Source of the DNA: Chloroflexaceae bacterium
GTDB taxonomy: Bacteria; Chloroflexota; Chloroflexia; Chloroflexales; Chloroflexaceae
DNA length: 64,000 nucleotides
NCBI GenBank assembly: GCA_028282325.1
Contig: JANQID010000041.1
Coordinates: forward strand, 1-64,000
Direction: 5' to 3'
Shown: one piece after another, positions 7,195 to 32,048 of the stretch
How positions within the stretch are numbered: the first letter of the stretch is position 1
How the letters are laid out: every line of letters begins with the position of its first letter
Made by a program: the position numbers and the translations under genes
Notes under the pieces: generated by a model
Databases searched by the model: none
Told to the model about the DNA's origin: nothing
Seen by the model: only the letters and a program-made list of their open reading frames with translations

Positions 7195-7333
7195 TACCAA
7201 ACGATGATGCGTATGCTGCATGTCACCCTGAACGGAGCCGCAGGCGGAGTGAAGGGTCTCGATGGCCTGGGAATCCGAGATTCTTCGCTGCGCTCAGAAT
7301 GACCGCATACGGTGCCTCCAGTATTGTTTGGTA
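7195..7333 (+). repeat. Dispersed inverted-terminal-repeat element, copy 2
   Basis: 139 bp starting TACCAAACGATGATG and ending ATTGTTTGGTA. It contains the family core with a 12-base insertion (GAACGGAGCCGCAGGCGGAGT) in the left core arm, a variant shared with copy 5 near 50.6 kb. It abuts the broken ICMT-like gene. Confidence 0.8.
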
Positions 7334-10029: not shown

Positions 10030-11307
10030 TTACTCCAACGCCTTTTCGATCCGAATAGGACGCGTAATTCGGGGCATATGCACGGGCAGCAGCAACGAGA
10101 TCGTCCCGGCGGTTACTACGAAGACCGCCGCCGCCCATAGACAGCCCTCTAAGCCATGAGCCTGGTAAATCAGGCCTGACAAAACCGTGCCGATCAGTCG
10201 TCCCAGTGCGTTCGCCATATAGTAAAAGCCCACGTTCAGCGCCGCTTTGTCGCTGTCGGTATAGGCCAGGATCAGGTACGAATGCACCGCCGAATTGAGC
10301 GCGAAGATGATCCCGAAGACGATCAGCCCCGTCACAATCACGATTCCCGGTTCGACGCCGTTCAGCAGCGCCAGCGCGATGCCAACGGGAAACGCCGCCA
10401 GCGCGAACGCCAGTCCGGTCGCGGTGCGTCCATCCGGCTCACGACCCTGCCCTGCAACGCGCCGCTTGAGCATGCCCGGCGTCGCTGCTTGAACAACGCC
10501 ATAGCCGATCACCCACAACGCCAGGAAGCCGCCCACCTGCCAGAAATTCCAGCCCAGCGCCTCGTAGAGAAACACCGGCAACCCAATGACAAACCAGACA
10601 TCGCGCGAGCCGAAGAGGAACATACGCGCCGCCGCGAGCACGTTTACCGCCCGATTCTTCGAGAATATCTGGCGGAACGTCGCTTTCTTATCAGCCACGC
10701 CCAGGTCGCCGCGCATCAGGACAACCGCCGTGATCAGCGCGGTCAGCACCAGCCCGGCCAGGATGAACAGGGCGGCGCGGAAACCGACCAGCGTCAATAA
10801 TAGCCCGCCGACGAAAAAGCCGACGCCTTTGAGTGCGTTCTTCGAGCCGGTCAAAATGGACACCCACTTGAACAGCGTCGATTGAGCATCTTCGGGCACG
10901 AGGAACTTGATCGCGCTTTTGGAGCTCATCTTGGTCAGGTCTTTGGCAATGCCGGAAAGCGCCTGCGCGGCCATTACGTAGGGGACGACCAGCCAGGCCG
11001 GGTTGATGGCGAGCATGCTCAGGGCGACCAGTTGGATCGCCAGCCCGCCGAACAGCGTGGCTTTCAACCCCAGGCGCGCGCCGAGCCAGCCGCCGACCAG
11101 ATTCGTCGCCACGCCGAAGATTTCGTAGAAAATGAACAGCATCGCGACCTGAAACGGCGTGTACCCCAGGTTAAAGAAGTACAACAGCACCAACATTCGG
11201 ATCGCGCCGTCGGTCAACGTATCGGCCCAGTACGCACCGGTGACCAGCATATAGTTGCGAAGGTCGTTCGAGCGACGGGATGGCGCGGCAGTTGCATCAG
11301 TCGACAT
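10030..11307 (-). CDS. arsJ: ArsJ, organoarsenical (1-arseno-3-phosphoglycerate) efflux MFS transporter
   Basis: A 425-aa MFS protein with 12 predicted membrane helices. The segments ADTLTDGAIRMLVLLYF, MAAQALSGIAKDLTKMSSKSA and LTGSKNALKGVGFF are characteristic of ArsJ. Known role: export of 1-arseno-3-phosphoglycerate made by the partner GAPDH from arsenate, which then breaks down outside the cell. The gene lies 99 bases downstream of that GAPDH gene on the same strand, the arrangement that defines the system. The N-terminal 12 residues are hydrophilic. It is probably co-transcribed from the ArsR-type promoter at 12557-12585. Confidence 0.9.
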   Translation of the reverse strand: MSTDATAAPSRRSNDLRNYMLVTGAYWADTLTDGAIRMLVLLYFFNLGYTPFQVAMLFIFYEIFGVATNLVGGWLGARLGLKATLFGGLAIQLVALSMLAINPAWLVVPYVMAAQALSGIAKDLTKMSSKSAIKFLVPEDAQSTLFKWVSILTGSKNALKGVGFFVGGLLLTLVGFRAALFILAGLVLTALITAVVLMRGDLGVADKKATFRQIFSKNRAVNVLAAARMFLFGSRDVWFVIGLPVFLYEALGWNFWQVGGFLALWVIGYGVVQAATPGMLKRRVAGQGREPDGRTATGLAFALAAFPVGIALALLNGVEPGIVIVTGLIVFGIIFALNSAVHSYLILAYTDSDKAALNVGFYYMANALGRLIGTVLSGLIYQAHGLEGCLWAAAVFVVTAGTISLLLPVHMPRITRPIRIEKALE

Positions 11308-11406: not shown

Positions 11407-12423
11407 TCAGCGTGCAGGCAGTTTCAGCGCAACCTTGCGCGCCAGTTCGATCATACGGTTGGTATAGCCCCATTCGTTATCGTACCAGGCCAGAATCTTC
11501 ACTTGTGTGCCATTAGTCACCATCGTTGATGGTGCATCAATAATCGCCGAGCGCGGATCATCGCGGAAATCGACCGAGACAAGCGGGCGTTCCTCGTAGC
11601 CCAGAATGCCGCGCAACGCTCCCGCAGCAGCGTCTCGCAGCAATGTGTTGACCTCGTCGCTGGCAGTTGGGCGCGCAACCTCAAACACACAGTCGGTGAG
11701 CGAGGCGTTGAGCAGTGGCACGCGCACGGCAATACCGTCGAGCTTACCTTGCAACTCCGGAAAGATCATGCCAATCGCCGTCGCCGAACCGGTTGTGGTC
11801 GGAATAAGCGACATACTCGCTGCGCGGGCGCGGCGCAGATCTTTGTGCGGCGCGTCAATCAACGTCTGGGTATTGGTCATATCGTGGATAGTTGTAATCA
11901 TCCCGTGGCGAATGCCGATGCCTTCGTGAATGACCTTCACCACCGGAGCGAGGCAGTTGGTGGTACACGAAGCGGCGGTGAGCAGGTGATGCTCGTCGGG
12001 CCGATACCAATCGTCATTCACCCCCATCACGATGTTCAGCGCGCCCTGCTTGACCGGTGCGGCAACGATCACTTTGCGCACGCCGGCCTGAAAATATGCA
12101 GCGAGCTTTTCGGGTGTGCGAAATTTGCCGGAGCATTCCAGCACAATATCGACGCCGGCGTCGGCCCAGGGAACCGAACCTGGTTCTGTGCGGCTGCTAT
12201 AGCCGATCGCCGTCTCGTCGATGACCAGAACATCATCTTCGCCGCGCACGGCGTGATCCCAGCGCCCATGCACCGAGTCGAAGGTCAGCAGATGCGCCGC
12301 CGCAGATGCATCGCCGTTCGGTTCGTTGACGTGAGCGAAGGTCAACTCCGGCCAGCCCCAGGCAGCGCGGAGCGCCAGCCGCCCGATGCGCCCAAATCCA
12401 TTGATGCCAATGCGAATACTCAT
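11407..12423 (-). CDS. ArsJ-associated glyceraldehyde-3-phosphate dehydrogenase
   Basis: A 338-aa type [24 protein letters not shown] at the N-terminus binds NAD. SCTTNC carries the catalytic Cys at residue 153, and [23 protein letters not shown] follows in the catalytic domain. In arsJ operons this paralogue forms 1-arseno-3-phosphoglycerate from arsenate and glyceraldehyde-3-phosphate, feeding ArsJ. I use ATG at 12423 because the protein then begins exactly at the family's start and GAGAGGAG lies upstream. A 22-residue in-frame extension to 12489 is unlike the family. A glycolytic role cannot be excluded, but position beside arsJ and a predicted arsenic-type operator argue for detoxification. 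Confidence 0.9.
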
Positions 12424-12539
12424 ACGTTGTGCCGCTCCTCTCGCGATCTGCGCAATGGACAACGTCCATACGCTCGATCTCCAGAACAATACATTGGTCG
12501 TTTCTTGATTGGTTATGCACGAATGCAGAACTTCAATTA

Positions 12540-12557
12540 TATCAATCTATATCGATA
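12540..12557. promoter_or_regulatory. Predicted ArsR-type operator
   Basis: TATCAAT-CTAT-ATCGATA: two 7-bp arms with one mismatch and a 4-bp spacer, just downstream of the -10 box of the GAPDH-arsJ promoter. Position and symmetry fit a repressor site of the ArsR/SmtB type. The likely ligand is the ArsR domain encoded at 12860-13627. Confidence 0.6.
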
Positions 12558-12585
12558 CTATAAATCCCGAAAGAGGGTTTGTCAA
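12557..12585 (-). promoter_or_regulatory. Promoter of GAPDH-arsJ
   Basis: On the minus strand TTGACA (12585-12580), a 17-bp spacer, then TATAGT (12562-12557). It lies between the repeat element and the GAPDH start, so the repeat does not interrupt it. The operator overlaps the start region. Confidence 0.75.
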
Positions 12586-12623: not shown

Positions 12624-12750
12624 TACCAAACGAATTTGGATCTACCGCAAGTGGTCATTCTGAGCGCAGCGAAGAATCCCGGCTTTTGAGGACGCTGATA
12701 CCCTTCGCTCCGCTCAGGGTGACATGCGGCCTGTTCATTATCGTTTGGTA
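12624..12750 (-). repeat. Dispersed inverted-terminal-repeat element, copy 3 (complete, 127 bp)
   Basis: Starts TACCAAACGAATTTGGATCT and ends ATTATCGTTTGGTA; the ends are inverted repeats. Core arms GTCATTCTGAGCGCAGCGAAGA and TTCGCTCCGCTCAGGGTGACAT are also complementary, so RNA from it would fold into a long hairpin. Same length as copy 4 at 31922. It sits between arsRC and GAPDH-arsJ. Confidence 0.88.
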
Positions 12751-12859
12751 TTATCGTACAAGTTCGTGATACACTTGCCCCCGGAGACGATAGATTTATA
12801 CCAAATTATATTGTTATTTTCTTGACAGCAGAGAAAATACGCTGAACGCGCGGCGACGC

Positions 12860-13627
12860 CTATGTGCGGACGCAAGCGACCAGGAGCGGCGGCAGCGCCT
12901 CGACGCGGGTGCGCAGAAGATCGCGGGCAGTGCGGAACGCGGCGATCTGATCGGCGAGGCTGCCTTCAACCATCGCCGGGTCAGGGATGCTCCAGTGGAT
13001 GCGGCGCGCGACGCCCGACCAGGTCGGGCACTGTTCGCGGGCCAGGTCACAGACGGTGATCACCACGTCGGGGCTGAGACCGACAAGGGCATCGAGTCCT
13101 TTGGCCGACTGGTGGCTGATGTCGATCCCGGCTTCGTCCATCGCCTGTATCGCCAGCGGGTGAATCGGTCGCGGTGTCGTGCCGGCGCTACGTACACGCA
13201 GGCGACCACCGCCGATGTGACGCAGCCAGCCTTCGGCCATTTGCGAGCGGGCGCTGTTGGCGGTGCAGAGGAAGAACACCGTGAGCGCGGGCAATTCGCT
13301 TGTCGGCGCGACGCCGGGCAAATACAAGCTGGCGCCGATCTGCCGATGCACGACCTGAAGCGCCGCACTATCCAGCCCATAGTAGAGGACGCGCGCGTCG
13401 GCGTCGCTGCGGTGAGCCTGAACCAGCCGGGCCTGACGAAGCACGTTCAAGTGGTAGGAGACGAGATTTTGCGGCAATTCAAGCTGTTCAACCAATTCGC
13501 CGACCTGGTAATCGCTCCAGCGGAGGGCGTTGATCAGCCGCCAGCGTGTATCGTCGGCCAGCAGCTTGAGCACGCGCAGCGTCGATTGCATCTCTGTGTC
13601 GACGTTCGGATCGTGTGGTGCGGTCAT
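12860..13627 (-). CDS. ArsR-family regulator fused to thioredoxin-type arsenate reductase ArsC
   Basis: A 255-aa fusion. Residues 13-95 form an ArsR-like winged helix (DDTRWRLINAL...VGELVEQLELPQNLVSYHLNVLRQARLV). Residues 113-255 form a low-molecular-weight phosphatase/ArsC domain: phosphate loop CTANSARS (C121, R127), a CDLAREQCP pair (C193, C200, spacing as in S. aureus ArsC C82/C89) and the SIPDP general-acid loop. This predicts reduction of arsenate coupled to thioredoxin plus DNA binding in one chain. The ArsR half has no cysteine, so the canonical As(III) site is absent. I use ATG at 13627; the frame is open to 13699, but those residues are not family-like. It is divergent from a TetR gene and upstream of GAPDH-arsJ. 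Confidence 0.82.
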   Translation of the reverse strand: MTAPHDPNVDTEMQSTLRVLKLLADDTRWRLINALRWSDYQVGELVEQLELPQNLVSYHLNVLRQARLVQAHRSDADARVLYYGLDSAALQVVHRQIGASLYLPGVAPTSELPALTVFFLCTANSARSQMAEGWLRHIGGGRLRVRSAGTTPRPIHPLAIQAMDEAGIDISHQSAKGLDALVGLSPDVVITVCDLAREQCPTWSGVARRIHWSIPDPAMVEGSLADQIAAFRTARDLLRTRVEALPPLLVACVRT

Positions 13628-13712: not shown

Positions 13713-13741
13713 TTGACAACACCGTTCGCTCGCGCTATACT
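13713..13741 (+). promoter_or_regulatory. Promoter of the tetR-permease operon
   Basis: TTGACA (13713-13718), 17-bp spacer, TATACT (13736-13741): a strong sigma-70 match, 44 bases before the TetR start codon. Confidence 0.82.
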
Positions 13742-13784: not shown

Positions 13785-14387
13785 ATGTCGCCTCGCGCAG
13801 ATGTCAGCGCCGAGCGCCGCAACCAGATACTCGATACCGCCGCCGCAATATTCGCCCGCTATGGCTTTCACCAGGCGCGGATGGATGACATTGTGCAGGC
13901 GTCGGGGTTGAGCAAAGGCGCAATCTATTGGTACTTCAAGAGCAAGGACGAGATCATCATTGCTTTGCTGCAACGCTTCTTCGGCCAGGAGTTGGCGGGC
14001 GCGCAAGCGCTGCTAGACGACCCCAACCCCGTCGGCGAGCGCCTGTTACAGATAAGCCGGCAGATCATCGCCGATACGTTGCATGTCACCACGATTGGCC
14101 TGATTCCGCTGTTCTACGAATTCTACGCGATGGCCCAGCGCGAGGGTCAGGTCCGCGAGTTTATCCGCACCTATTTTTTCGCCTATCGCGATCTGTTGAG
14201 CACGCTGATACGCCAGGGCATCGCGCGCGGCGAATTTCGCCCCATCGATGCCGAACAGGCCGCAACTACGCTGTGCGCGCTGTACGAAGGTACGCTGCTG
14301 ATCTGGGGCGTCGTGCCAGAAGGCATTGACCTGGAACAACAGGTGCTGGCTGCGGTGCGCTTGCTCATCGCCGGAATCTCCGCCTGA
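13785..14387 (+). CDS. TetR/AcrR-family transcriptional regulator
   Basis: A 200-aa protein. Residues 10-56 form the TetR helix-turn-helix domain (RNQILDTAAAIFARYGFHQA, then DDIVQASGLSKGAIYWYF with the YWYFKSKDE tail). The C-terminal ligand/dimer domain is all-helical. ATG is preceded by AGGGAG with a 5-base spacer. It is the first gene before a large ABC-type permease, and a palindrome sits at its own transcription start, so autoregulation and control of the permease are likely. The ligand is unknown. Confidence 0.9.
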   Translation: MSPRADVSAERRNQILDTAAAIFARYGFHQARMDDIVQASGLSKGAIYWYFKSKDEIIIALLQRFFGQELAGAQALLDDPNPVGERLLQISRQIIADTLHVTTIGLIPLFYEFYAMAQREGQVREFIRTYFFAYRDLLSTLIRQGIARGEFRPIDAEQAATTLCALYEGTLLIWGVVPEGIDLEQQVLAAVRLLIAGISA

Positions 14388-14437: not shown

Positions 14438-16966
14438 ATGGCACGCGATATTGACCATCACAAATCCCTCACCGGGCCGGGCGCCGCTCAAACGGCGGCG
14501 CAAGGGGCGACCTGGGTGCGCCCGATGCTCAGCCCTCGCTGGCGTAAGGTTCTCGCCGACCTGGGGAGCCACAAAGTTCGCACGCTTCTGGTAACGCTCT
14601 CGATCTTCATCGGTATCTTCACTATCGGCATGGTTGTCGGCGCGCAGGCGATCCTCGACCGCGAACTGAGAACCGGTTATCTAAACATTGATCCTGCGCA
14701 CGCCATCATCACCACCGGCGGCGTGACCGGCTACAACGAAGATTTCTCGCTCAACTCGGCGCCCGCGAACCAGGAAGGCTTTAGCGAGGAACTTATCGAC
14801 GCGGTGCGCCGGATGCCCGAAGTCGCCGACGCCGAAGGCCGCCACGTATTCGATGCGCGGGTGCGCGTAGGGGACGCCTGGAAAAGCATTCAGTTCACCG
14901 CCATCGATGATTTCGCCGACGTGCGCGTCGACAAGATCCGCTCTGTCGCCGGAGCCTGGCCGCCAGAAGAGCACGAGGTATTGATCGAGCGATCGGGCAT
15001 GGGCGTGCTCGGCGTCGAGATCGGCGATACCATCTTGATCGAACTGCCCGATGGCAAGCAGCGCGAGATGCGCGTCGCCGGCGTGGTCCATGACCTCACC
15101 CAGTGGCCAACGCCGTTCCTTGGCACAGTGTATGGCTACATCGCGTTCGACACGCTGGAATGGATGGGTGAATCGCGCGACTATAACAAGCTGATGATCC
15201 GGGTGGTCACGAATGCCGACGATAAGCAGCACAACGAAGAAGTCGCCGAGCTGGTGCATGACAAAATCCAGAAATCGGGGCTCGATCCGTCCTTTCCGCA
15301 GGTTCCCACACCCGGCGAGCATCCGCTCAATTTTATGATCGTCGCGCTCACGTCATTGATGGGGCTGCTCGGCGTATTTGCGATCTTTCTCGGCAGCTTC
15401 CTGGTGGTCAATACGATCTCGGCGCTGCTGGCCCAGCAAATCAAACAGATCGGCATTATGAAAGCGATCGGCGCACGTCCCAGGCAGATCATCGCCATCT
15501 ATATAGTTCTGGCGCTGAGCTTCGGCGTGCTCGCGCTGCTGCCGGCGATTCCGCTGGCCCAGGTTGCTACGCAGGGGTTCGCCCGCTACATCGCCGCATT
15601 CCTCAACTTTGACATTGCTGACGCCGGCATTCCGGCCTTCGTCGTTCTCATTCAGATCGGGGCAGCGCTGCTCGTACCGATGGGCGCGGCGTTTCTGCCG
15701 GTGCTGACCGGCACGCGCGTATCGGTGCGCGAGGCATTCGGCAGCGATAGCGGTCTGGGGCGATCCTACGGATCGGGAGGGATCGACCAGCTGTTGAGCC
15801 GCATACGCGGCTTGCCGCGCCCGGTGCTGCTTTCGCTGCGCAACACCTTCCGCCGCAAGGCGCGTGTGACGTTGACCTTGTTCACACTAATGGTCGGCGG
15901 GGCCTTTTTCATCTCGGTGTTCAGCATTCGCGCCTCGTTATTCCTAACGTTGGAAGAACTGGTTGAATCGCTCTATGGCTACGATGTTGATGTGTTTCTA
16001 GCCCGCTCCTACCGCGATGACTATCTGGTCGCCACGGCAGAGCGCTTGCCGGGCGTGGTCGCCGCCGAGGGTTCGGTGCAAACCAGTGTACGGCGCGTAT
16101 TTCCAGACGACCGCAAAGGGCTGGATATGCAGCTGATCGCCGTGCCACCGGAGAGCGACACGCTCAACCCGCAGATTGTGGCCGGGCGCTGGCTGCAGCC
16201 CGCCGACGAGAACGCGCTGGTAATCAGCACCGGCATGCTCAAGGACGATCCCGATCTGGCCGTTGGCAGCAAGATCACCATTGAGATCAAAGACCGTGAG
16301 ATTGTCTGGCAGGTGGTGGGCATTATGAAAGCTCTGGGCAATTCGCGCTGGGCCTATGCCAACCAGGATTACTATGGCCGGGCGGCCCGCGAAATCGATC
16401 AAGCCAGTTATCTGCGCATTGTCGCCCGCGAGCATACACCCGCCTTCCAGGCTCAACTGGCCAATAGGTTGGAGAAGCAATTCAAGCGCGAGGGCATCGA
16501 GATCAGTTACACCAAGACAATCTCCGAGTTGAGCCAGGGCGACTTCGCGGCGATCAACGTGATCACGATCAGCCTGATGCTGATTGCGGTGCTGGTGGCT
16601 GTGGTCGGCGGGCTAGGGCTGGCCGGAACGATGAGCCTGAACGTGATCGAGCGGATGCGCGAGATCGGCGTGATGCGGGCTATCGGCGCAGAAGATCGTG
16701 CCCTGTTGCAGGTGTTCATCGTCGAGGGCATGGTGATCGGCGGGCTGAGCTGGCTGATCGGCGCATTGCTATCGCTGCCGTTGGGCAAGCTGATGAGCGA
16801 CATGCTCGGCGAGCAGATTTTCTCCTCGCCGCTGTCGTTCAGCCCCTCGCTGACCGGTGCGTTGCTCTGGCTGGCGCTGTCGTTGGCGATCAGTGCGTTG
16901 GCCAGCCTATGGCCAGCCTGGAACGCCACGCGCATCCCCGTGCACGACGTACTGGCATATGAGTGA
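14438..16966 (+). CDS. ABC transporter permease, duplicated FtsX domains (MacB-like core)
   Basis: An 842-aa membrane protein. The N-terminal helix KVRTLLVTLSIFIGIFTIGMVVG is followed by a large extracytoplasmic (MacB_PCD-like) domain, three helices forming the first FtsX domain (about residues 300-430), a second extracytoplasmic part (about 500-690) and a C-terminal FtsX domain (about 700-840) with SLNVIERMREIGVMRAIGA. Such permeases work with a separate ATPase in lipoprotein or peptide transport. No ATPase gene is adjacent, so the partner must be encoded elsewhere. It lies 50 bases after the TetR gene, probably in one transcript, and ends before a strong hairpin. Confidence 0.85.
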   Translation: MARDIDHHKSLTGPGAAQTAAQGATWVRPMLSPRWRKVLADLGSHKVRTLLVTLSIFIGIFTIGMVVGAQAILDRELRTGYLNIDPAHAIITTGGVTGYNEDFSLNSAPANQEGFSEELIDAVRRMPEVADAEGRHVFDARVRVGDAWKSIQFTAIDDFADVRVDKIRSVAGAWPPEEHEVLIERSGMGVLGVEIGDTILIELPDGKQREMRVAGVVHDLTQWPTPFLGTVYGYIAFDTLEWMGESRDYNKLMIRVVTNADDKQHNEEVAELVHDKIQKSGLDPSFPQVPTPGEHPLNFMIVALTSLMGLLGVFAIFLGSFLVVNTISALLAQQIKQIGIMKAIGARPRQIIAIYIVLALSFGVLALLPAIPLAQVATQGFARYIAAFLNFDIADAGIPAFVVLIQIGAALLVPMGAAFLPVLTGTRVSVREAFGSDSGLGRSYGSGGIDQLLSRIRGLPRPVLLSLRNTFRRKARVTLTLFTLMVGGAFFISVFSIRASLFLTLEELVESLYGYDVDVFLARSYRDDYLVATAERLPGVVAAEGSVQTSVRRVFPDDRKGLDMQLIAVPPESDTLNPQIVAGRWLQPADENALVISTGMLKDDPDLAVGSKITIEIKDREIVWQVVGIMKALGNSRWAYANQDYYGRAAREIDQASYLRIVAREHTPAFQAQLANRLEKQFKREGIEISYTKTISELSQGDFAAINVITISLMLIAVLVAVVGGLGLAGTMSLNVIERMREIGVMRAIGAEDRALLQVFIVEGMVIGGLSWLIGALLSLPLGKLMSDMLGEQIFSSPLSFSPSLTGALLWLALSLAISALASLWPAWNATRIPVHDVLAYE

Positions 16967-20433: not shown

Positions 20434-21651
20434 TCAGGTCAGATCAGGCGCCTGGCCATCGACGCCGGCCTCGTTATCATATATTTCCATCTCTTCGGGC
20501 GGGCCAAAGCGCACTTCCAGCAAACCGTTGCGGAAGAGAGCTTTTGTTGCCGGGCGTTCGGCCAGCGTCGTGGGCAAGATCATATCACGGCGGAAGTTAC
20601 CGATCTCGATGAACAACTCATCGCCGCGTTTAGTCATCGAGACCTTGCCGATCTCGACGTGCGGCAACGGCAGGCGCAGTACAAATTCCTCACCGTCAGG
20701 GATAATTTCTTGCATCTTGCCGTGGAATTGGACATCCACCGGATCGACATCCTTGAAGATCGTATTGCCGATTTCGGACAAATCGTCGAGGCCGTGAATG
20801 TCACGAGCATAGTACGGCGATTCCCAGATCGGCAGAGGCTGAAAAATATCGTAGATTTGCTTGCGATAGTCCTGCTGGATGCGCGCCATTTCGCGCATAA
20901 ACTCGCCTTCCGCCTTGTCCATCGGCAACACGCGGTTGAGCACCACGCCGTCGATCGGATAGCCGAAGAGCGACAGGTAGGTTGAGGCGCGTTGGGCCTC
21001 TTTGATCACCATACGCTCTGGGTTGACCACGAGCCGATATGAACTCACCTCCGGGTTGGTGAGCGTGTCACGCAAGGCCTCAACGCCGTTGGTCAGCCGT
21101 TCGAGCGTCTCAAACACATCGGCGCCGGGCACCAGCGCTTTCATCAACGGTCGGGCCACCTTGAGCGTCCCCGGCTCCCAATCCATTACCCGTGCCGCGT
21201 ACCACTGGAAGGTTTCCGGCATCGTCAGCAGACGCACCGTTTCGCCGGTCGGGGCTGCATCGACAACCACCACATCAAAATTGCCGTCGCGAGCCTGACG
21301 CCGAATATGAAGCAGGCTAACGACCTCCTCCATACCCGGAATAATCGCCAACTCTTCGGCGGCAACTTCATTAACGCCGCGGCGACGCAGCAATGTCGAG
21401 AAATAGACGCGAAGTTGGCCCCAATGCTGGCGCACCTCATCCAGCACGTTAATTTCTTGACCCCAGAGCTTGTCTGTCAACTCGGTGGGCAGAGGGCCAA
21501 GTGGAGTATCCAGCGCATCCGCCAGGCTATGCGCAACGTCGGTGCTTACAACCAGGGTGCGGTAGCCCAACTCTGCTGCACGCACGGCAGTCGCTGCCGC
21601 TGTGGTAGTCTTGCCAACTCCACCCTTGCCCAGATACAGGATGAGACGCAT
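20434..21651 (-). CDS. ArsA-family (Get3/TRC40-like) ATPase with C-terminal Hsp20-like domain
   Basis: A 405-aa protein. GKGGVGKTTTAAATA (residues 8-22) is the deviant Walker A. STDVAHSLADAL (about 36-47) is switch I, and VVVDAAPTGETVRLL (about 126-140) is switch II/Walker B. Residues from about 320 on (EEFVLRLPLPHVEIGKVSM, then RGDELFIEIGNFRRDMILP) form the ArsA_HSP20 domain seen in Chloroflexi, cyanobacterial and actinobacterial homologues. The single ATPase domain has no clear CxxC dimer motif or arsenite-binding cysteines, and no arsB is nearby. A role in membrane-protein targeting or unknown client handling is more likely than arsenite pumping. AAAGGAA supports the start. Confidence 0.87.
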   Translation of the reverse strand: MRLILYLGKGGVGKTTTAAATAVRAAELGYRTLVVSTDVAHSLADALDTPLGPLPTELTDKLWGQEINVLDEVRQHWGQLRVYFSTLLRRRGVNEVAAEELAIIPGMEEVVSLLHIRRQARDGNFDVVVVDAAPTGETVRLLTMPETFQWYAARVMDWEPGTLKVARPLMKALVPGADVFETLERLTNGVEALRDTLTNPEVSSYRLVVNPERMVIKEAQRASTYLSLFGYPIDGVVLNRVLPMDKAEGEFMREMARIQQDYRKQIYDIFQPLPIWESPYYARDIHGLDDLSEIGNTIFKDVDPVDVQFHGKMQEIIPDGEEFVLRLPLPHVEIGKVSMTKRGDELFIEIGNFRRDMILPTTLAERPATKALFRNGLLEVRFGPPEEMEIYDNEAGVDGQAPDLT

Positions 21652-31921: not shown

Positions 31922-32048
31922 TACCAAACGATAATGAACAGGCCGCATGTCACCCTGAGCGGAGCGAAGGGTCTCAGCGTCCCCGACAGCCGGGATTCTT
32001 CGCTGCGCTCAGAATGACCGCTTGCGGTAGATCCAAATTCGTTTGGTA
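31922..32048 (+). repeat. Dispersed inverted-terminal-repeat element, copy 4 (complete, 127 bp)
   Basis: Starts TACCAAACGATAATGAACAG and ends CAAATTCGTTTGGTA. Opposite orientation to copies 1 and 3 and nearly identical to both. It lies between the membrane-protein gene and the polyprenyl synthase gene. Terminal TA may be the duplicated target. Confidence 0.88.

Follow-up and report, generated by a model that had tools for sequence, protein, structure and literature searches.

Fusions of an ArsR-type regulator with an arsenate reductase (ArsC) are on record from several genomes, and their function is not established (PMC6205960; PMC6514093; PMC4443643). The reported fusions are ArsRC of L. ferriphilum, which is assumed to do both jobs (PMC4443643), and proteins of Microbacterium, Sinorhizobium and the Actinobacterial clusters C4 and C7. 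No experimental test of ArsR-ArsC fusions as sensors was found in a literature search. The pair formed by a glyceraldehyde-3-phosphate dehydrogenase (GAPDH) and the transporter ArsJ makes and exports 1-arseno-3-phosphoglycerate, no arsenite being formed (PMC5930303; PMC6205960); for V. cholerae the exported species was argued to be free arsenate (PMC9601151). The var operon of V. cholerae (arsR-varG-varH-arsJ) encodes an ArsR whose As(III) motif has undergone a C-to-A replacement; this ArsR was suggested to be an arsenate sensor, and how arsenate-exporting, non-reducing bacteria sense arsenate was raised for this operon as an open point (PMC9601151). Arsenate was also proposed as the effector of TtSmtB, an ArsR/SmtB protein of T. 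thermophilus (PMC5658604). TtSmtB and the remark on V. cholerae were the only references to an arsenate-sensing ArsR found in the literature search.

The window, which is the whole 64,000-nucleotide stretch of Chloroflexaceae DNA that was analysed, encodes an ArsR-ArsC fusion with gapdh and arsJ downstream on the same strand. The features of the fusion gene are as follows.

12860..13627, (-) strand: ArsR-ArsC fusion gene, 255 aa, proposed repressor of gapdh-arsJ (ORF, profiles, AlphaFold2 model)
13325..13609, (-) strand: winged-helix (ArsR/SmtB-type) domain, residues 7-101, Cys-free (HTH_5; helices and wing in the model)
12893..13285, (-) strand: ArsC domain of the LMW-PTP fold, residues 115-245 (TIGR02691, VIA-align)
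13265..13267, (-) strand: codon of C121, P-loop nucleophile (CX5R), 84/84 fusions
13049..13051, (-) strand: codon of C193, counterpart of pI258 Cys82, 84/84 fusions
13028..13030, (-) strand: codon of C200, counterpart of pI258 Cys89, 83/84 fusions, Ile in L003/L057

Like the reported ArsR-ArsC fusions, the protein has both domains on one chain and an ArsC half of the thioredoxin type. It differs from them in its neighbours, which are gapdh-arsJ and not an arsenite pump, in an operator defined across genomes, and in the documented pairing of an HTH that lacks a Cys site with a triad that hardly varies. With the var system it shares the proposed role of an ArsR-type protein that represses an arsenate pathway through GAPDH and ArsJ, in which no arsenite is made, but the V. 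cholerae ArsR is a stand-alone protein, whereas the fusion has an attached ArsC domain that may be the sensor. TtSmtB, unlike the fusion, has three Cys in the regulator and no fused enzyme, and regulates a separate arsC. Winged helix and palindromic promoter operator are common to the fusion and to canonical ArsR proteins (R773, AfArsR, CgArsR and ArArsR types); in contrast to these, the fusion has none of the described sites of two or three Cys (PMC11868830). The fusion type is known already, unlike the genes that it targets and the way in which it probably senses. New seems to be the combination of the fusion as regulator of gapdh-arsJ, an operator that follows gapdh-arsJ even where the two are unlinked, and an HTH free of arsenite sites with an intact triad. 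Our main reading, to which we give a probability of about 0.55, is that the fusion is the repressor of gapdh-arsJ and that its ArsC domain serves as the arsenate input via the Cys cycle. Judged from sequence comparison, the target genes and the DNA site are well supported; the sensing step we infer, and it is probably the enzyme half that detects arsenic.

The regulator half belongs to the ArsR/SmtB family by two profiles, both over the curated cut-off: HTH_5 (Pfam) matches residues 25-70 with 44.5 bits (cut-off 22), and the NF033788 metalloregulator profile scores 57.7 bits (cut-off 55). The recognition helix comprises residues 53-65, QNLVSYHLNVLRQ, and its residues S57, Y58, H59 and L60 are at least 90% conserved in the fusion alignment. 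The enzyme half is matched by LMWPc (Pfam) over residues 117-245 (57.9 bits, cut-off 23.2). Its nearest NCBIfam entry is TIGR02691, arsenate reductase (thioredoxin), with E 1.3e-35; the equivalog score is missed (122.5 of 174.3 bits), and the domain is a family relative that is not called an equivalog. The CX5R loop and the Cys82/Cys89 pair of the pI258 class have their counterparts in C121-X5-R127, C193 and C200. With the thioredoxin-coupled ArsC of pI258 and B. subtilis the fusion has in common CX5R, the Cys82/Cys89 spacing, the DP general acid and the fold (Z~21), and it differs in being joined to a DNA-binding domain and in scoring under the curated TIGR02691 value.

An AlphaFold2 monomer model made from an 84-row alignment (mean pLDDT 95.6, pTM 0.90) shows a winged helix (7-101), a short linker and ArsC (115-254). 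The last HTH helix (87-101), which we take to be the usual ArsR dimer helix, leads through a linker of 13 residues into the strand ending at the C121 loop. Owing to this link a signal path between HTH and ArsC would be short in the model; that the path is used we infer. VIA-align placed the ArsC half with D. indicus ArsC2 (Z 21.7), B. subtilis ArsC (21.6) and pI258 ArsC (20.9), the matches including trapped-disulfide and arsenite-bound forms. No chain spanning both fusion domains was in the VIA-align list, and the match to Cg_ArsC1' (3t38) is limited to the ArsC part.

The first-pass annotation had described a regulator half without Cys and a reductase half that keeps three redox cysteines. 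Both observations are borne out: residues 1-120 contain no Cys, and C121 (in FLCTANSARSQ), C193 and C200 (in CDLAREQC) are where they had been placed. A fourth Cys, C252 (LLVACVRT), had gone unmentioned and is not conserved across the aligned fusions. For a single protein the Cys-free HTH is a weak observation, because the proteins of the window contain 0.35% Cys (P~0.68 for a Cys-free stretch of 110 aa) and Cys is likewise absent from 8 of 27 stand-alone ArsR-family proteins of 13 related genomes. Chance thus stands as the cause for one protein and is overcome only by conservation across the family. The sources of full-length fusions were 61 genomes belonging to the order and, in a scan of GTDB, 80 named loci; conservation was counted on a non-redundant fusion alignment of 84 rows. 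No row has a substitution at C121 or C193, a single row has one at C200, and N124, R127, S128, D194, H211 and W212 are invariant as well. The alpha-3 CxC arsenite pair is absent from every aligned fusion; the alpha-3 region reads DYQVGELV in the window fusion versus VCVCDLE in the canonical ArsR of the same genome. Some Cys is present within the HTH columns of 30/84 fusions, the widely recurring one being a lone Cys in column 90 of Actinobacterial fusions. Close homologues had been named as a place where a normal Cys site might turn up, and in the 84-row alignment they lack one. By these data the fusion would not be classed with the described types of As(III)-responsive ArsR proteins, which have Cys ligands for arsenite in the ArsR chain.

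ArsR-ArsC fusions occur in cultivable Chloroflexaceae, Roseiflexus, Herpetosiphon and many Actinobacteria. In a tree of the ArsC domain (140 columns, many forks unresolved) fused and stand-alone proteins are separated by 2 label changes. The fusions, all with N-terminal ArsR and C-terminal ArsC, thus appear as one clustered lineage, which does not prove a single origin. The lone column-90 Cys, at the start of the last HTH helix, is found in most Actinobacterial fusions (mostly Actinobacterial set of loci L097, L100, L104-L107, L110, L111, L114, L117-L120, L123 and L125-L131); several of these fusions have as neighbour a protein without assignment or one of the glyoxalase fold (VOC). A natural variant without the last redox Cys (C200 to Ile) is encoded by Chloroflexi bacterium OHK40 (L003/L057).

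The promoters of fusions in other genomes have a motif in common, ATACATCAA-N6-TTGATGTAT (ATCAA-N6-TTGAT). At least 9 of its 10 core bases are present in 49 of 83 fusion promoters versus 0.4 expected from shuffles. A position matrix was built from 58 sites that match 8 or more of the 10 core bases, all from fusion promoters of other genomes and none from the window. Its two best matches in the window lie in the gap between the fusion and gapdh, and the features of this gap and of the operon are the following.

12536..12561, no strand: candidate operator on the gapdh-arsJ promoter (23.4 bits, top match in the 64-kb window)
12795..12820, no strand: second, weaker operator-like site of the same intergenic region (18.3 bits, second in the window)
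12557..12585, (-) strand: sigma-70-type promoter TTGACA-17-TATAGT for gapdh-arsJ (11/12 matches)
11407..12423, (-) strand: ArsJ-associated glyceraldehyde-3-phosphate dehydrogenase (NF033735, 566.9 bits, cut-off 450)
10030..11307, (-) strand: ArsJ organoarsenical efflux MFS transporter (NF033734, 584.3 bits, cut-off 400)

Adjacent to each other and both over cut-off, the last two genes are predicted to form a GAPDH-ArsJ arsenate efflux system. The main site lies immediately next to the -10 box of their promoter. The suggestion that the fusion has a DNA site at 12540-12557 holds as far as the site itself is concerned: its core at 12541-12556, ATCAATCTATATCGAT, has one mismatch to ATCAAN6TTGAT, and its score was matched by 3 of 2000 column-permuted matrices. 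With up to 3 mismatches allowed, the 4.6-Mb genome contains 15 pattern matches, 2 of them within the 436-bp fusion-gapdh gap (P~1e-6). Plain ATCAAN6TTGAT counts in the window are at chance level (22 seen versus 23.7 expected, no excess), so the operator is separated from the background by the position matrix only. The target promoter thus appears to carry a palindromic operator, as do those of ArsR/SmtB repressors. No operator was found upstream of the window fusion itself, and autoregulation is therefore not indicated here. Two further matches were set aside as background: the third matrix match, at 1064, lies within an ORF, and the best pattern match of the genome (C49:16639) has no recognised arsenic gene beside it.

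Related genomes have the fusion either away from gapdh-arsJ or beside it, and in the latter case it is divergent or forms a tandem with a second fusion that has diverged. Of the relatives with the fusion beside gapdh-arsJ, most have the site in front of either the fusion or the operon. In 17 genomes the closest relative of the window fusion is located on a different part of the genome from gapdh-arsJ; no good operator was found upstream of these 17 unlinked fusions themselves, and an operator of 16.7-34.9 bits precedes gapdh-arsJ in 17/17, as predicted by regulation by the fusion in trans. An ArsR-family gene is also within the fetched stretch at 6 of the 17 unlinked gapdh-arsJ loci and could be the binder; in one genus of this set (g4) a second fusion elsewhere carries an operator site. 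Co-occurrence of ArsJ and fusion in the family is mildly significant (Fisher P 0.015, from hand counts that ignore kinship). That the operator is general to canonical ArsR proteins was mostly rejected. Promoters of canonical CxC ArsR genes are mostly without it, including that of the VCVCDLE ArsR situated about 3.4 kb from an ArsM-type gene of this genome, and several such genes share another motif, ATATTGACA...TCGATAT; the exception is one CxC ArsR gene (L148) with an operator resembling that of the fusion.

A second, diverged ArsR-ArsC paralogue with an intact triad, an altered recognition helix and its own operator-like site was seen in Roseiflexus and others. It is clustered with gapdh-arsJ in tandem (L014:679-1473(-), L017, L021, L024, L026, L030) or divergently (L008:2455-3309(+), L022:426-1262(-)). 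In Anaerolineae and Herpetosiphon the neighbours of the fusion are genes for an aquaporin and a metallophosphoesterase, and frequently a separate arsC lies next to it. The calcineurin-like metallophosphoesterase, often accompanied by the aquaporin and with or without arsC, is the neighbour at L068, L069 and L073-L079, and further such loci in Anaerolineae and Herpetosiphonaceae are L082-L084, L087, L092, L093, L096 and others.

According to the main reading, the Cys-free winged helix would bind ATCAA-N6-TTGAT at 12541-12556 and block transcription. Arsenate would enter the CX5R loop and be attacked by C121, and the ArsC cycle would then run via C121-C193 and C193-C200 disulfides, with the redox helix moving. 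Movement of this helix is known from pI258 ArsC. One state of the cycle would weaken DNA binding, leading to expression of gapdh and arsJ; GAPDH would make 1-arseno-3-phosphoglycerate and ArsJ would complete export, as for the homologues of P. aeruginosa, Halomonas and V. cholerae. The switch would be returned to its starting state by thioredoxin. What the protein reads directly would thus be arsenate, on which the induced pathway acts, and not arsenite. In its strict form, in which the catalytic Cys cycle of the fused ArsC is an arsenate-specific transcription switch and arsenate is sensed by trying to reduce it, the proposal is tentative and has slightly less than an even chance of being right.

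The idea of the first-pass annotation that arsenic is read through the cysteines of the enzyme agrees with the following findings: the HTH is without described arsenite sites, close homologues have no normal Cys site, the triad is kept, and the operator lies on the gapdh-arsJ promoter. By these findings arsenic has no other obvious point of action than the ArsC half. The response of DNA binding to arsenic and the role of the cysteines in it stand as proposed there. The annotation named neither the arsenate-efflux pair as the probable target nor the earlier accounts of such fusions and of arsenate-responsive or Cys-altered ArsR proteins. The triad is near-invariant even in fusions with a separate arsC alongside. 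C193 and C200 would be superfluous in a spent enzyme or in a domain that only binds, and their retention argues that Cys chemistry matters in the fusion. The full thioredoxin cycle is not always needed, as L003/L057 has Ile for C200. The ArsR-ArsC family is a concrete candidate for an arsenate sensor, having no arsenite site, a complete ArsC attached, and a defined operator and target operon. If arsenate turnover drives the switch, this would be metalloid sensing of the trigger-enzyme type, unlike that of Cys-site ArsR proteins, and a potential part for an arsenate-selective biosensor.

The genome (99.98% complete) was searched for arsenic genes. ACR3 was not found at E 1e-20, nor was a second Trx-type ArsC at E 1e-3, and ArsB, an MIP channel (aquaporin), ArsP and a Grx-type ArsC were likewise not found in the genome. 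With ArsB, ACR3, MIP and ArsP all absent, no known arsenite exporter would follow reduction, and detoxification by ArsC plus a pump was rejected. Two ArsM-type methyltransferases are over cut-off; they would give arsenite made by the domain a fate, so a reductive branch may exist and the ArsC domain could be an ordinary enzyme. A Get3/ArsA-fold ATPase (TIGR00345) is encoded at 20434-21651(-), unlinked to an arsenite pump gene.

It is on these ArsM-type genes, together with the fact that the ArsC of the fusion is the sole one of the genome, that a plain bifunctional fusion would draw, in which the repressor responds to something other than arsenic, or to a signal that bypasses ArsC, the ArsC half being simply the arsenate reductase of the cell and feeding ArsM. 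The triad and the general acid D216 look catalytically complete in the sequence, and the domain matches ArsC enzymes at Z~21. We consider this quite unlikely, since the fusion here adjoins the arsenate-export pair and not arsM, no alternative inducer site was seen in the HTH, and beside many fusions a separate arsC already fills the reductase job. Arsenate might also be sensed by binding only. The P-loop would then hold, but not turn over, arsenate or 1-arseno-3-phosphoglycerate, and Cys chemistry would be incidental. The LMW-PTP loop binds oxyanions, its residues N124, R127 and S128 are invariant, and TtSmtB, which has no reductase domain, reportedly comes off DNA more easily in the presence of arsenate than of arsenite (PMC5658604); C193 (84/84) and C200 (83/84), however, need not be kept for binding alone, which makes this explanation quite improbable.

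Arsenite, taken up or made in situ, could instead be the signal, an As(III)-thiolate on two or three of C121, C193 and C200 in the reduced ArsC pocket releasing the DNA and the arsenate cycle not being the trigger. The described ArsR arsenite sites all consist of Cys ligands, 3 for As(III) and 2 for MAs(III) (PMC11868830), one of the solved structures (1lju) is of ArsC in complex with arsenite, and the fusions offer three conserved Cys. Yet the regulated pathway handles arsenate and not arsenite, the canonical CVCDL ArsR near arsM is already there for arsenite, and L003/L057 has only two of the three Cys; we hold an arsenite sensor to be unlikely, at perhaps one chance in a handful. The main reading, with arsenate as the input through the Cys cycle, is retained over these explanations.

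Divergent from the fusion is a gene for a TetR-family regulator at 13785-14387(+), with a promoter TTGACA-17-TATACT (13713-13741) and a palindrome, CTGACCAGTCGG. It is followed by a large ORF at 14438-16966(+), by appearance an FtsX/MacB-type permease. An interspersed palindromic repeat, GAGCGCAGCGAAGAAT ... ACCCTTCGCTCCGCTC, is present in the window at 20-73, 12662-12715 and 31957-32010, with single arms near 7280, 28675 and 50729 (9 matches versus 0.2 expected); one copy lies between the two operator sites of the fusion-gapdh gap.
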